Source: Gelidibacter sediminis
Lineage (GTDB): Bacteria > Bacteroidota > Bacteroidia > Flavobacteriales > Flavobacteriaceae
Assembly: GCF_004364975.1 (NCBI RefSeq)
Contig: NZ_SOBW01000008.1
Span: forward strand, 928,610 to 992,609
DNA length: 64,000 nucleotides
Direction: 5' to 3'
Positions 20,995 through 47,892 of this stretch are shown here, in pieces. The notes below the pieces were generated by a model that made no database searches, was not told the origin of the DNA, and worked only from the letters and a program-made list of their open reading frames with translations. Each line of letters begins with the position of its first letter. Positions within the stretch are counted from its first letter, which is position 1. A program made the position numbers and the translations under genes.

Positions 20995-21203
20995 ATCAGG
21001 CATTAACGATGTACACGTATTAAAAATAACATGATGCGAACGTTTATTGTAGATATGAATTCAAAATAGTTGCTCATTATAAGCCTAAAACCGCGAAGGG
21101 CGATTTTAGAGTCTTTTTTCATCTATTCGCTCATGCGCAACTCCGTTGGCACCGCCACATATAAAAAAAGCCTAACAAATCTTATGATTTGTTAGGCTTT
21201 TAG

Positions 21204-21222
21204 TGGTCGGGATGGCAGGATT
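21204..21222 (-). pseudogene. 3'-terminal relic of tRNA-Pro
   Basis: TGGTCGGGATGGCAGGATT matches the CCA end, acceptor and part of the T arm of the intact tRNA-Pro at 21385, with one substitution. Similarity ends abruptly at 21222. Confidence 0.7.
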
Positions 21223-21344
21223 AACTTGGTTGATCCTGAGTAAGGGTCGTTGCTCATTATAAGCCTAAAAACCGCGATAAGCGGTTTTAGCGTCTTTTTT
21301 CATTTGTTCGCTTATGCGCAACTCCGTTGGCACCGCTACACATG

Positions 21345-21383
21345 AAAAAAGCCTAACAAATCTCATGATTTGTTAGGCTTTTA
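21345..21383 (-). terminator. Terminator downstream of tRNA-Pro
   Basis: AAAGCCTAACAAATC and GATTTGTTAGGCTTT form a 15-bp stem around TCAT, flanked by A/T runs. A second copy lies at 21164-21202 in the duplicated segment. Confidence 0.8.
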
Positions 21384-21384
21384 G

Positions 21385-21462
21385 TGGTCGGGGTGGCAGG
21401 ATTCGAACCTGCGACCTCCGCGTCCCAAACGCGGCGCGATAACCGGGCTACGCTACACCCCG
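21385..21462 (-). tRNA. tRNA-Pro (anticodon TGG)
   Basis: Minus-strand cloverleaf: acceptor CGGGGTG/CACCCCG, anticodon stem CCGCG/CGCGG around TTTGGGA, T arm GCAGG/CCTGC around TTCGAAT. The discriminator is A and the CCA is encoded. Confidence 0.96.
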
Positions 21463-33108: not shown

Positions 33109-33158
33109 AACTCATGAATTTAACATGAGACACTCTTAGAATTACTATCATTAATAAA

Positions 33159-34118
33159 CGATTTTTTTCGTCCCTCAAAAATCACTCGAACTGACATTGC
33201 ACAGCCATTGTCAATTCGAGTGAATTCCACGATTGAAATGAGTGGAATTTGTATCGAGAATCTACCTCGATTATTGCACGGTTCTCGATACTATTTTTTC
33301 GTCCCTCAAAAATCACTCGAACTGACATTGCACCTTTGTCAATTTGAGTGAATTTCACGATTGTAATGAGGGAAATTTGTATCGAGAATCTATCTCGATT
33401 ATGGAACCGTTCTCGATACTATTTTTTCGTCCCTCAAAAATCACTCGAACTGACAGTGCACAGCCTTTGTCAATTCGAGTGAATTGCACGATTAAAATGA
33501 GTGGAATTTGTATCGAGAATCTATCACGGTTATTGAACGGTTCTCGACACGATTTTCTCGTCCCTCAAAAATCACTCGAACTGACATTGCACAGCCATTG
33601 TCAATTCGAGTGAATTCCACGATTGTAATGAGTGGAATTTGTATCGAGAATCTTACTCGCTTTTTGAACGGTTCTCGATACGATTTTTTTCGTCCCTCAA
33701 AAATCACTCGAACTGACATTGCGTAATTCTTGTCAATTCGAGTGAATTGCACGATTGAAATGAGTGGAATTTGTATCGAGAATCAATTGCGCTTATCGAA
33801 CGGTTCTCGATACGATTTTTTCGTCCCTCAAAAATCACTCGAACTGACATTGCACATCCTTTGTCAATTCGAGTGAATTGCACGATTGAAATGAGTGGAA
33901 TTTGTATCGAGAATTTATTGCGCTTTTTAAACGGTTCTCGATACGATTTTTTCGTCCCTCAAAAATCACTCGAACTGACATTGTACAGCCTTTGTCAATT
34001 CGAGTGAATTACACGATTGAAATGAGTGGAATTTGTATCGAGAATCTATCTCGATTATTGCACGGTTCTTGATACGATTTTTTCGTCCCTCAAAAATAAC
34101 CTCGAACTGACACTTGCG
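33159..34118 (+). repeat. Array 1: seven ~131-bp structured repeat units plus a leading partial unit
   Basis: CGTCCCTCAAAAAT recurs at 33169, 33300, 33428, 33559, 33691, 33822, 33953 and 34084 (periods 128-132). Each unit is bounded by inverted ends (TGTCAATTCGAGTGA ... TCACTCGAACTGACA) and joined to the next by a variable 9-14 nt spacer. Inside lie a weaker hairpin (ATTCCAC/GTGGAAT type) and a strong one (GTATCGAGAA ... TTCTCGATAC followed by GATTTTTT). Sequence changes fall mainly in loops and spacers. The last unit has a degenerate right arm. The array fills the convergent gap between the STAS-like gene and the metzincin lipoprotein gene. The open frames it contains are translations of the repeat and not genes. 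Confidence 0.95.
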
Positions 34119-34143
34119 GTTATACCTGGAACAACACACTAAA

Positions 34144-35715
34144 TTAATAAGTCGCTAATTCAGCAAGATGAGTGTAATGAAACCCTCCATGGTTGTTTTT
34201 CGTAATAAATTTGAAATAGCGATATGAAGTACCTTCAGGCAAATTCACGTATTGCCAGTTTTGCATTTTTTCTAATGAATAGTCTCCTAATTTCACCCAA
34301 CTACCGTTGGTGTTGCTGCCATAAAGTTCAAAGTCTTTGATGGCACCATTTAAATTTTCCCGATTGCCAAATGCAAAACCATTTATTTGTGTAGATTCAT
34401 TCCTGTCTAAAATAAAGTAGTGGGGATGATTTGGACGACTCGTTTTATATTGCGTATGCCAAAACGTATCTTGAAACCCATCGAGCATAGTACTTGCCAA
34501 GCCATCATCTTCCTGACTGTTAACCTCGATGATATTCCATTCTGTTGGGTGGATTAATTTTTTACTATTGATGACTTCAATATTTGGGATACCATTTTTA
34601 AATTCATATTCATAGCTATAGGTGCTATGTGAACCATTTTCATGGTAAAACCGAATTCTAAGTTGGTAGTCGCCACTTAATATAAAAAATTCAGATAGTG
34701 AGCTTTCAATATACAGACTGTCTGTGCCAACTGGTTTTACGTTCCATGCAGGTGCATCATAATCTTTATTGCCTCCGGCAGGATAAGGATCGTGCCACAC
34801 TACAATGTCCGTAACAGGTATGGCACTCTCAAAGTTCCCAGAAATTATAATTTTATTATCTTCTACCTTTCCTTTCAAATAGGTCAGTTTATTCTTGGTT
34901 GGTCCGTACCAATCCGTGCGAACTTCATTACTAAAAGCTTGACTATTCGCAAATGTAGCCGCTGTGGCGCCGGTCATAAACGTAGGAGATTTACCATAGG
35001 TATAATTGCCCGCGCCCATCAAAGCAGTGCCTTTAGTTGCTTTTTCACTCTTCTTTTCACTATTGTGAGGCGCGTTTAATCCATGGCCTAACTCGTGGTA
35101 CAATCCGCCAATCCATTTGGTGGCTAGTGCGCCATATACGCCAGTGGTTTCCAAGTGTTCCAATTTCATTTCAGGATAATCTAATGCATAGCAGAAGGTG
35201 CCCAGTCCATAAAAAGGCACACCTCCAGGGTTTAAAGGATCTCCTGATATAGACGGAAGGATGACCAAAGAATGCTCACTGTGTTTTTTGTCTGGGTTTT
35301 CAGCAAAATAAGATTTTAATTCTCTATTTATAACCGACCCTCCTCCGCTATACGGGTAAGCATCTTTGCCACGTTCAGCAAAAATGGTATTAATATTAAC
35401 GATGTTATTACTTTTTAAATCCAATCCAAATGACTTTCTTCCAAAGCCTTCCTTTTCCATATAGTCTGCACAATAGCCTTGAAAGGCTAATAAAATCTCA
35501 GAAATTCGTTTGGTATAGCCCGGAACCGTATCAACATCTATTGGCACCCAATAAATCACATTCAACTTATAGGCTTGATCTTTCCATTCATTATCAATAG
35601 TAGTATTAGAGGTAATATTTGGTGGATTGCCCTTAGATGTCCTGTTTTTTGAAGCACAACCAAAAAGTGATATTAGAACAACAATAGTTAATGCAATAGG
35701 AATGAATTTTATCAT
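34144..35715 (-). CDS. Metzincin-like lipoprotein with C-terminal discoidin (F5/8-type C) domain
   Basis: A 523-residue protein. A lipoprotein signal is present (IVVLISLFGC, Cys20). The N-terminal half holds HELGHGLNAPHN near residue 208, which is an extended HExxHxxxxxH zinc site, and LMGAGNYTYG, which could supply a Met-turn-like element. The middle part is a beta-sandwich-like region, and the last 130 residues (EDDGLASTMLDGFQDTFWHTQY ... YRYFKF) look like a discoidin/F5/8-type C carbohydrate-binding domain. It is probably an outer-membrane-anchored protease acting on a glycan-rich or host-derived substrate. It stands alone and is flanked on both sides by the same repeat array. Confidence 0.82.
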   Translation of the reverse strand: MIKFIPIALTIVVLISLFGCASKNRTSKGNPPNITSNTTIDNEWKDQAYKLNVIYWVPIDVDTVPGYTKRISEILLAFQGYCADYMEKEGFGRKSFGLDLKSNNIVNINTIFAERGKDAYPYSGGGSVINRELKSYFAENPDKKHSEHSLVILPSISGDPLNPGGVPFYGLGTFCYALDYPEMKLEHLETTGVYGALATKWIGGLYHELGHGLNAPHNSEKKSEKATKGTALMGAGNYTYGKSPTFMTGATAATFANSQAFSNEVRTDWYGPTKNKLTYLKGKVEDNKIIISGNFESAIPVTDIVVWHDPYPAGGNKDYDAPAWNVKPVGTDSLYIESSLSEFFILSGDYQLRIRFYHENGSHSTYSYEYEFKNGIPNIEVINSKKLIHPTEWNIIEVNSQEDDGLASTMLDGFQDTFWHTQYKTSRPNHPHYFILDRNESTQINGFAFGNRENLNGAIKDFELYGSNTNGSWVKLGDYSLEKMQNWQYVNLPEGTSYRYFKFITKNNHGGFHYTHLAELATY

Positions 35716-35836
35716 GCGTAAGGTTTTAGAGAATTATGTAGATTATAGTTCCGCCCCAAAAATATTGTTTAACTCTAAGAAGTAAAAGTAATTTTAGAAT
35801 TTTATAGTCGTGGAACTAAATACTTATACTTTGCCT

Positions 35837-36215
35837 ATTCGAGTGAATTGCACGATTGAAAAGAGTGGAATTTGTATCGAGAATCTATCTCGGTTGTTGC
35901 ACGGTTCTCGATACGATTTTTTTCGTCCCTCAAAAATCACTCGAACTGACAGTGCTTAAATTTTGTCAATTCGAGTGAATTGCACGATTGAAATGAGTGG
36001 AATTTGTATCGAGAATCTTACTCGATTATGGAACCGTTCTCGATACTATTTTTTCGTCCCTCAAAAATCACTCGAACTGACAGTGCTTAAATTTTGTCAA
36101 TTCGAGTGAATTGCACGATTGTAATGAGTGGAATTTGTATCGAGAATATATCTCGATTGCTGCACGGTTCTCGATACGATTTTTTCGTCCCTCAAAAATC
36201 ACTCGAACTGACAGT
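35837..36215 (+). repeat. Array 2: three units of the same ~131-bp repeat
   Basis: CGTCCCTCAAAAATC recurs at 35924, 36055 and 36186 (period 131), in the same orientation as array 1. The array begins exactly in a right arm (ATTCGAGTGA at 35837) and ends in a left arm (ACTGACA at 36216), so whole units are present. It starts about 120 bp upstream of the lipoprotein gene and ends about 10 bp from the hutH stop. Junction spacers here (GTGCTTAAATTT) differ from most in array 1. Confidence 0.95.
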
Positions 36216-36225
36216 GTCTTAAAAT

Positions 36226-37746
36226 TTAATCAAACAGCAACTCATTTTCAATCGAAAAATCAGTGATAAATTGCACCGATTTCTGCATGAGCTCATGAAA
36301 AATTAAATCTTGAGTCACAAATTGCACTTCACTTTGGTAACTATTTAAAAATGCTTCTATTAAAGGTGACGACGTTGTTGGTTTTCTAAAAGTGATGGCC
36401 TGTGAAGCATTCAACAATTCGATTGCCAAAATCTTTTCTACATTATACACTAAGGTATAGGCTTGAGTTGCAGAGTTAGCACCCATGCTCACATGGTCTT
36501 CCTGTCCGTTTGAGGACACAATAGAATCTACACTTGCAGGTGTGGCCAATTGCTTATTGGCACTGACGATACTTGCAGCAGTATATTGCGGAATCATAAA
36601 TCCGGAATTCAACCCAGGATTGTCCACCAAGAATGTTGGCAATCCGCGCAATCCTGAAATGAGTTGATAGATACGTCTTTCAGAAATGTTGCCAAGCTCT
36701 GCCATAGCTATCTTTAAATAATCTAATGCTAAGGCTAATGGCTGTCCGTGGAAATTACCACCAGAAATAATTTCGTTCTCACCAACAAACACGTTAGGAT
36801 TATCGGTTACTGAATTGATTTCGGTTTTTATGGTTGTATGGATAAACTCTAAAGTATCTTTAGTTGCGCCATGAACCTGTGGAATGCATCTAAAGGAATA
36901 CGGATCTTGAACATGCTGCTTTTGCTGAGAAATCAACTGACTGCCATCCAAAAATTCCCGAACACGTTCTGCCGTTTTCAATTGCCCATTATGAGGACGT
37001 ACCAAATGCACCAATTCATTAAACGGCTCGATTCTTCCATCAAAAGCATCCAAAGAAATACTTCCGATTAAATCGGCCAAATAAGAAAGTTTATAAGATT
37101 TCAATAATAAGTGGACACCATAAGCACTCATAAACTGCGTTCCGTTTAAAAGCGCCAAACCTTCTTTAGACAACAACGTAATAGGTTGCCAATTGAATTG
37201 CTCCATAATTTCAGAAGCTGGCTTTACCTTGCCGTCATGAAAGACTTCCCCCTTCCCTATCAATGGTAAGGCCAAATGAGCCAAAGGTGCAAGGTCTCCA
37301 GAAGCGCCTAATGAACCTTGAGTATATATAATTGGTAAGATATCATTATTATAAAAATCGACCAAACGCTGTACCGTTTCAAGCTGTACACCACTATGAC
37401 CATAACTTAACGATTGAATTTTCAGCAATAACATCAGTTTTACAATGGCATTGGGTACCTGATCTCCCATCCCACAGGCATGAGACATCACCAAGTTTTC
37501 TTGTAACTGGGTTAATTTGTCTTTAGAAATTTTTACATTGTATAACGATCCAAACCCAGTATTGATACCATAGATTGGCTCATCTTGCTCCAACATTTTG
37601 TCGTTGAGATATACTCTACACGTATTAATTTTGGAAATGGACTCCTTTGAAAGTTCAATCTTTTTGTCATAAAAAAGGATGTCGCTTATCGTAGATATTT
37701 CTAAAGTCTTCGAGGATATCGTATGCGTTAAATTCATTATTGTCAA
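36226..37746 (-). CDS. hutH: Histidine ammonia-lyase
   Basis: A 506-residue enzyme that deaminates histidine to urocanate. The MIO cofactor forms from the Ala148-Ser149-Gly150 triad in GSLGASGDLAPLAHL, and the GINTGFGSL segment at residues 60-68 supplies the catalytic Tyr region; later SVTDNPNVF and SNGQEDHVSMG motifs are conserved. Length matches the family. A start at 37737 (MNLTHTIS) is equally possible. No other hut genes are next to it, so the pathway is split in this genome. Its stop lies 10 bp from repeat array 2. Confidence 0.96.
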   Translation of the reverse strand: MTIMNLTHTISSKTLEISTISDILFYDKKIELSKESISKINTCRVYLNDKMLEQDEPIYGINTGFGSLYNVKISKDKLTQLQENLVMSHACGMGDQVPNAIVKLMLLLKIQSLSYGHSGVQLETVQRLVDFYNNDILPIIYTQGSLGASGDLAPLAHLALPLIGKGEVFHDGKVKPASEIMEQFNWQPITLLSKEGLALLNGTQFMSAYGVHLLLKSYKLSYLADLIGSISLDAFDGRIEPFNELVHLVRPHNGQLKTAERVREFLDGSQLISQQKQHVQDPYSFRCIPQVHGATKDTLEFIHTTIKTEINSVTDNPNVFVGENEIISGGNFHGQPLALALDYLKIAMAELGNISERRIYQLISGLRGLPTFLVDNPGLNSGFMIPQYTAASIVSANKQLATPASVDSIVSSNGQEDHVSMGANSATQAYTLVYNVEKILAIELLNASQAITFRKPTTSSPLIEAFLNSYQSEVQFVTQDLIFHELMQKSVQFITDFSIENELLFD

Positions 37747-43250: not shown

Positions 43251-43327
43251 TCAGTGGGCAGTTTTCAGTGGGCAGTAGGCAGTCTTCAGTAGGCAGTTTT
43301 CAGTAGGCAGTTTTCAGTAGGCAGTGG
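43251..43327. repeat. Short degenerate tandem repeat (GGCAGT/TTCAGT) between thrA and thrB
   Basis: About five imperfect 15-16 bp copies of CAGTAGGCAGTTTT in a 204-bp gap. It starts right after the thrA stop. No stem or gene is seen in it. Confidence 0.8.
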
Positions 43328-43451
43328 CACGAGAATTCATAATCTGATTTAAATTAGTGATAATTCGTGCCATTCGTGTCAAAACAAATTAAGTTACGGT
43401 GACTTTAATGCTCTTTTTGATATTAATTGAAACTTAAAAAATAAAGTACTT

Positions 43452-46809: not shown

Positions 46810-47892
46810 ATGAAAAACACAGCATTAACAGCCACTCACGAAGCTCTAGGAGCTAAATTAGTCCCTTATGCAGGATTTAACATGCCTGTTCAATATGAGG
46901 GTGTCAGTGTAGAACACGAAACCGTAAGGAAAGGGGTTGGTGTATTTGATGTATCACATATGGGTGAATTTTTAATTGAGGGACCTCATGCCTTAGAACT
47001 CATTCAGAAAGTGTGCAGTAATGATGCCTCGAAACTTACCATTGGGAAGGCGCAATACAGCTATTTACCAAATGAAACAGGTGGTATTGTTGATGATCTA
47101 ATTGTTTATAAAATTAAGGAGGAGACATATTTATTAGTGGTCAATGCTGGCAATATTGAAAAAGATTGGAACTGGATCAGTTCTAAAAATGATGTGGGCG
47201 CCACCATGAGAGACCTTTCTCCTGAGTATTCTTTATTGGCTATACAAGGTCCAAAAGCTGTGGAAGCCATGCAAAGCTTAACAAGCCATGATTTGTCTGA
47301 AATTAAATTCTACAATTTTGTGGTGGGCGATTTTGCAGGTATCGAGAATGTTATCATTTCTGCAACAGGTTACACTGGTAGTGGCGGATTTGAAATTTAC
47401 TGTAAGAATTCAGAAGTGAAACAGATTTGGGACAAAGTTTTTGAAGCAGGTGCTTCTTACGGCATCAAACCAATCGGGTTGGCTGCACGTGACACCTTGC
47501 GTTTAGAAATGGGCTACTGCTTATATGGCAATGATATTGATGAAAACACGTCTCCTATTGCTGCTGGTTTAGGTTGGGTAACAAAATTCACCAAAGAGTT
47601 TACCAATAGTGAAGCTTTAAAATCAGAAAAAGAGCACGGTCCAGAAAATAAATTGGTCGGTTTTGAGTTAGATGATCGAGGCATCCCACGTCATGGCTAC
47701 GATATTGTTGATGGCAATGGAAAAATTATTGGCGTAGTAACCTCTGGCACCATGTCGCCATCATTAAACAAAGGGATTGGCTTAGGATACGTACCAGCTA
47801 TTTTTGCCGAAGCAGGCAGTAAAATTAACATACAAATTCGTAAAAATGCCGTTCCAGCAACTGTTGTGAAAACGCCATTTTATAAAGCATAA
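46810..47892 (+). CDS. gcvT: Glycine cleavage system T protein (aminomethyltransferase)
   Basis: A 360-residue protein starting at ATG 46810 (an upstream GTG at 46783 would add nine residues of low plausibility). [16 protein letters not shown] and [11 protein letters not shown] near residue 45 are typical, with [18 protein letters not shown] and [17 protein letters not shown], the folate-site region. It transfers the methylene group from the H-protein to tetrahydrofolate. Here gcvP and gcvH are elsewhere. glsA follows after 3 bp, so they are probably co-transcribed. Confidence 0.97.

Follow-up and report, generated by a model that had tools for sequence, protein, structure and literature searches.

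The window, by which we mean the entire 64,000-nucleotide stretch analysed here, contains two tandem arrays with a 131-bp period, detected by TRF at 33158-34117 (7.3 copies) and 35823-36227 (3.1 copies). They comprise ten complete units with inverted ends and a partial one, which together flank one lipoprotein gene on both sides, and the locus has a 94-aa gene as its neighbour on one side and an aromatic amino acid lyase gene on the other. The features, in window coordinates, are:

33160..33196, + strand: U0, partial unit (right half only) at the start of array 1
33209..33327, + strand: U1, full REPIN-like unit, TGTCA..TGACA
33209..33260, + strand: example left half-element (REP) of U1, T-GTCA-ATTCGAGTG-hairpin 1-GTATCGAGAA
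33261..33281, + strand: apical loop of U1; the equivalent loop holds a GIY-YIG gene in gene-carrying relatives (G000:C1:665.4k, 666.4k)
33282..33327, - strand: example right half-element of U1, the inverted module with hairpin 2, ATTTTTGAGGGACGAAAAAAT
33337..33455, + strand: U2, full unit with a paired change in hairpin 1
33468..33586, + strand: U3, full unit
33599..33718, + strand: U4, full unit
33731..33849, + strand: U5, full unit
33862..33980, + strand: U6, full unit
33993..34112, + strand: U7, full unit, right half decayed beside the gene
34144..35715, - strand: lipoprotein gene with lipobox LFGC, metzincin-type HELGHGLNAPH and an F5/8 type C domain, between U7 and U8
35832..35951, + strand: U8, full unit, left half decayed beside the gene
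35964..36082, + strand: U9, full unit
36095..36213, + strand: U10, full unit

As the original prediction stated, repeat arrays of a single orientation lie on both sides of the gene, and the natural unit has inverted ends, running from TGTCA to TGACA over 119-120 bp when complete. The inter-unit spacers, for which 9-14 nt had been given, measure 9-12 nt: they are 12 nt long except for one of 9 nt, and their sequence is largely repeated between units. The 1719-bp gap between U7 and U8, which contains the lipoprotein gene, takes the position of one such spacer, and the gene-facing ends of both these units are decayed. Array 1 opens with a partial right half (33160-33196), while array 2, which had been thought to start in a right arm, opens with a left half that is degenerate but complete. 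Sites resembling GTCASTTCGAGTG number 18 against 0.04 expected, and the arrays contain 18 of the 19 GTATCGAGAA sites present in the window, with 0.02 expected for the whole window; a stray single box stands outside them at 47339-47348. RNA folding of the copies tested, one of them on both strands, gave z-scores of -3.0 to -7.1. The proposal that U2 alters both sides of a stem together holds in so far as hairpin 1 carries a real paired change (C to T with G to A), but the same stem also gains one mismatch. A CRISPR array was rejected, as had been anticipated, on the repeat layout, in which units of 119 bp alternate with a 12-nt spacer that is itself largely repeated, and an integron attC array because RYYYAAC / GTTRRRY core sites are absent from the consensus unit. 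An Rfam structured RNA was likewise rejected, since the best score, 25.8 bits, lies below the gathering score of 40 and the match to snoR104 is attributable to chance. Elsewhere in the window there is a near-perfect 181-bp tandem duplication at 21069-21403 (1.9 copies, 90% match), which is not of the element family, and a short degenerate tandem repeat, CAGTAGG/CAGTGGT, at 43252-43329.

Each unit consists of two inverted hairpin modules of the form (T/C)GTCA-n-TTCGAGTG-[hairpin]-GTATCGAGAA, joined by a loop of ~20 nt, and its architecture is that of a REPIN-like doublet of hairpin REPs. We searched for modules with a pattern made of the two boxes only, leaving the gap between them free, and used the reversed pattern as control. 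The genome of the window yielded 48 modules and no control match, and modules were found in 142 of 299 family genomes, with control matches in 2, so the family is not confined to this locus, a point that the original prediction had left to a search of relatives. Although GTCA was absent from the pattern, it precedes the TTCGAGTG box in 192-198 of 200 modules per position at the fetched loci. Among 177 distinct inserts between the boxes, 91.5% form a stem of 5 bp or more from their two ends, compared with 6.5% of shuffled inserts and 35% of cross-paired halves; after clustering the figures were 85%, 6.5% and 25%, respectively. Stem sequence varies freely between modules and pairing is retained, and on this comparison of sequences we regard the stem as selected as a stem. 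Together, the inverted hairpin doublet, the orthologous empty sites described below and the distribution over the family bear out the earlier assignment to a REP/MITE-type element.

The mismatches that do occur are unevenly distributed when read in module orientation, with 56 G.T against 9 A.C, or 15 against 4 after clustering (p 0.02), these being pooled module-oriented counts of left and right arms together. Since the halves of each unit are oppositely oriented, this G.T bias suggests that each half is recognised on its own strand, as in the processing of ssDNA; the data favour such per-half strand recognition, and transcription of both strands is the alternative. At two further loci (L036, C1:1516.7 kb; L037, C1:384.7 kb) half-elements alone repeat head to tail, module to module, with a 36-37-nt period, indicating that the half-element can amplify by itself.

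A related array of the same genome, at C1:664.7-667.3 kb, is built on the same plan from units of ~174 bp, and two of these have a longer loop that accommodates a 96-aa reading frame encoding a GIY-YIG nuclease (Pfam 60.7 bits). The site of the gene is the loop between the two GTATCGAGAA boxes. The catalytic GIY-YIG residues are conserved in the nuclease family, and an AlphaFold model (pLDDT 87.7) matched best the UPF0213 proteins (PDB 1zg2, 1ywl) and then the branched-DNA nuclease Slx1; the nuclease had no match in the defence and phage protein libraries or in NCBIfam. A scan of bacterial genomes for its relatives gave 80 loci, at which the inverted-repeat score between the gene flanks had a median of 15 compared with 8 for controls, and a score of at least 14 was reached by 48 of the 80 nuclease genes but by only 1 of 138 control intervals. 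At the clade-A loci (n=39) the gene often begins 6-19 nt past GTATCGAGAA and stops 0-10 nt ahead of TTCTCGATAC. The strict +/- arrangement of modules around the nuclease was found at 18 of these 39, about half lacking it, and further loci have a degenerate gTCTCGATAC. The length of the loop between inward-facing boxes is bimodal, being mostly either 18-40 nt, without a gene, or ~280-390 nt, with one. Other GIY-YIG subfamilies of the same genomes have flanks mostly devoid of modules, and the link to modules is thus specific to the subfamily. The nuclease of G. salicanalis IC162 (NZ_VORX01000002.1) is 98% identical to that of the window's genome.

Some individual loci deserve mention in their own right. 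The window's genome has a second nuclease gene of the family (L047, G000:C1:1363.3 kb), located between inverted repeats of TGTCAGGCTGAGCGCAGTCGAAGCC type, so that two module types coexist in one genome. In G006 a nuclease copy broken by a stop codon (L208, C5:40231-40461) has four type-C repeats downstream and is likely a relic, and a record labelled Rhodobacteraceae (L165), with a flavobacterial-type nuclease and type-C repeats, is probably a binning error. A small GIY-YIG gene of the window's genome (L050, G000:C1:740.8 kb) adjoins a tRNA-like sequence and lies ahead of that sequence's second copy.

Across the 299 genomes, modules occur in 53 of 54 with a clade-A nuclease compared with 89 of 245 without (odds ratio 93, p 5e-19), where clade A is delimited by a cut-off of 141 bits, placed by eye in a thin score gap (141.1 to 137.3) after inspection of both lists; the single exception, G280, is right at this cut-off. 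Because the presence of a single copy is partly trivial, the gene's own flanks being counted, we also applied a threshold of at least three modules, which 52 of the 54 clade-A genomes and 53 of the 245 others reached. At least three module types were seen, TTCGAGTG/GTATCGAGAA, CGAGCGnAGTCGAGA and CTGAGCGnAGTCGAAG, all with a GTCA-type head, and they follow the nuclease phylogeny: all 38 type A loci fall in one 39-member clade, and the tree requires 2 changes of type compared with 27 when types are shuffled. Co-evolution of the module type with its nuclease, in Flavobacteriaceae and some other Bacteroidota, forms part of a broader reading, given below, which we hold tentatively. There are also 26 genomes with at least 10 modules in which no clade-A gene was found (for example G185, G293 and G205, with 100, 64 and 46 modules); these may harbour relic populations or another enzyme, or may reflect assembly gaps.

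The history of the window locus was compared among congeners. At the orthologous site G001 has ~10 units and G006 two, the lipoprotein gene being absent from both, and in six further congeners array and gene are both missing, so that the unit counts, including the window's genome, are 11, ~10, 2 and 0. The presence of the array without the gene in two congeners suggests that the gene split a pre-existing array. Read most simply, these sequences mean that the element was there first and that the lipoprotein gene entered later between two units, the alternative being that the gene was lost in both congeners. The original prediction of an element expanded on both sides of one gene is accordingly reinterpreted: the units do flank the gene, and the array is taken to pre-date it. 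A tree of the units of this array from the three species, which is poorly resolved, clusters the species labels. Homologs of the lipoprotein gene are patchy, occurring in 15 other genomes of the family, and modules were absent from the flanks of the six best homologs inspected, including a 75% identical one; on these grounds regular cargo was rejected, and the gene is probably a bystander.

Copy number is polymorphic at other loci as well, where the window's genome has related tandem arrays. Locus a has ~12, 7, 1 and 0 units among the compared genomes, locus d is an empty site in G006 with flanks 96-98% identical, and locus e has 4 versus 2 modules, with a 37-nt single-module expansion. A single genome, G119, contains near-identical modules at dispersed sites. 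In the window's genome arrays at different loci are only ~70-77% alike over longer matches, and spread between these loci is therefore old. G006, which has no clade-A gene, has short arrays only, which is consistent with the nuclease having a part in amplification, as one case among the three congeners, all draft assemblies, in which amplification and nuclease presence were compared.

The known system that most invites comparison is RAYT/REPIN, in which an IS200/IS605-related Y1 transposase gene lies between two inverted REPs and many doublets are gene-less (PMC2817692, PMC3116915). The elements described here share with it an enzyme gene between inverted modules, gene-less inverted doublets, tandem clusters, a 5' head tetranucleotide and hairpins kept by complementary changes. 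However, the head is GTCA rather than GT(A/G)G, in each half conserved boxes flank a hairpin whose sequence is free, and a GIY-YIG nuclease takes the place of the HUH/Y1 transposase. That a Y1 tyrosine transposase moves the elements, with the GIY-YIG gene as a passenger, would account for the shared architecture but is extremely unlikely: dozens of loci have a GIY-YIG gene between their inverted modules, no Y1_Tnp exceeds the cut-off in the window's genome, and HUH/RAYT transposases (Y1_Tnp) are not associated with modules in the 299 genomes (odds ratio 1.05, p 0.90). The linked RAYT-like transposase suggested by the original prediction is therefore not borne out, the linked enzyme being a GIY-YIG nuclease, which that prediction did not anticipate, and the system works like RAYT/REPIN but fails on the enzyme that defines the latter.

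Transcribed terminators, mRNA-stabilising structures or small RNAs acting in gene regulation would agree with the stable folds and with the intergenic position of the window arrays between convergent genes, but inverted halves that each favour their own strand are unlike one transcript running over the unit, no Rfam match passes threshold, and the orthologous site of six congeners is without the array; we consider this very improbable. Of the earlier idea of an RNA-structure element the stable folding stands, whereas a DNA element is the better fit to the strand asymmetry of each half and to the link with the nuclease. We give similarly little credence to a plain satellite, an ancient repeat that grew by slippage or unequal crossing-over, with the nuclease hitch-hiking; it is in line with copy numbers that differ among species and with locus-specific spacers, but leaves unexplained the conserved boxes with free but paired stems, the co-phylogeny and the 53/54 co-occurrence. 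A less remote but still unlikely explanation starts from Ssn of Neisseria, a GIY-YIG nuclease that is specific for ssDNA and whose target sites are repeated. Ssn resembles the present system in having a small stand-alone GIY-YIG domain with catalytic residues and a cognate repeated DNA, and its family is the nearest known idea. Under such a genome-maintenance or DNA-uptake role the nuclease would cut ssDNA, whether incoming or exposed, where it carries modules, and would so control transformation or recombination, with amplification as a side effect; the cognate repeat population and strand-asymmetric hairpins speak for it, while a gene inside the repeat and the locus-by-locus expansion of arrays have a selfish look.

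We consider it probable that the units of the window are gene-less, non-autonomous REPIN-like elements, and that a GIY-YIG nuclease with strand specificity amplifies them by making cuts that are then repaired. The sequences show the anatomy, the packing of the gene, the co-phylogeny, the co-occurrence, the pairing, the polymorphism and the array without the lipoprotein gene; from these we infer binding, cutting, strand choice, repair, amplification and action in trans on the window units. The nuclease would recognise its own module as folded single-stranded DNA and would cut at or near the GTCA head, after which repair from another copy as template would add units in place. More rarely the same route, homing-like and using host repair enzymes, would place units at new sites. 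The window units would be passive substrates, acted on in trans by the nucleases encoded in the C1:665-667 kb array. Strand transfer is not a known activity of GIY-YIG nucleases, and transposition would hence rest wholly on host repair. In spreading through cuts that are repaired from a copy, the element would resemble GIY-YIG homing endonucleases of the I-TevI type, but here an intron is absent, the protein (96 aa in total) has no additional DNA-binding domain, and the target is an intergenic hairpin repeat. The closest match in both sequence and fold is to the UPF0213 proteins, which are not known to have a repeat partner. More tentatively, and with somewhat less than even confidence, we propose a distinct class of bacterial mobile element, REPIN-like hairpin doublets that owe their movement and amplification to a GIY-YIG nuclease with folded ssDNA as its substrate, without an HUH, DDE, serine or tyrosine recombinase. 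In the part of the journal literature that was searched, we found no paper linking GIY-YIG with 'repetitive extragenic palindromic'.

So far REP and REPIN populations have been associated with a single enzyme, the RAYT transposase, and here the same architecture is found around an unrelated nuclease. GIY-YIG-partnered repeats thus point to a second, undescribed or little-known way in which bacteria keep and amplify REP-like repeats, and nuclease-partnered modules are widespread in a large family of environmental bacteria. For the small UPF0213-type GIY-YIG proteins this supplies a cognate DNA partner and, with it, a testable function, and the partnership would also explain the origin of the TGTCA-type palindromic repeats in many flavobacterial genomes.
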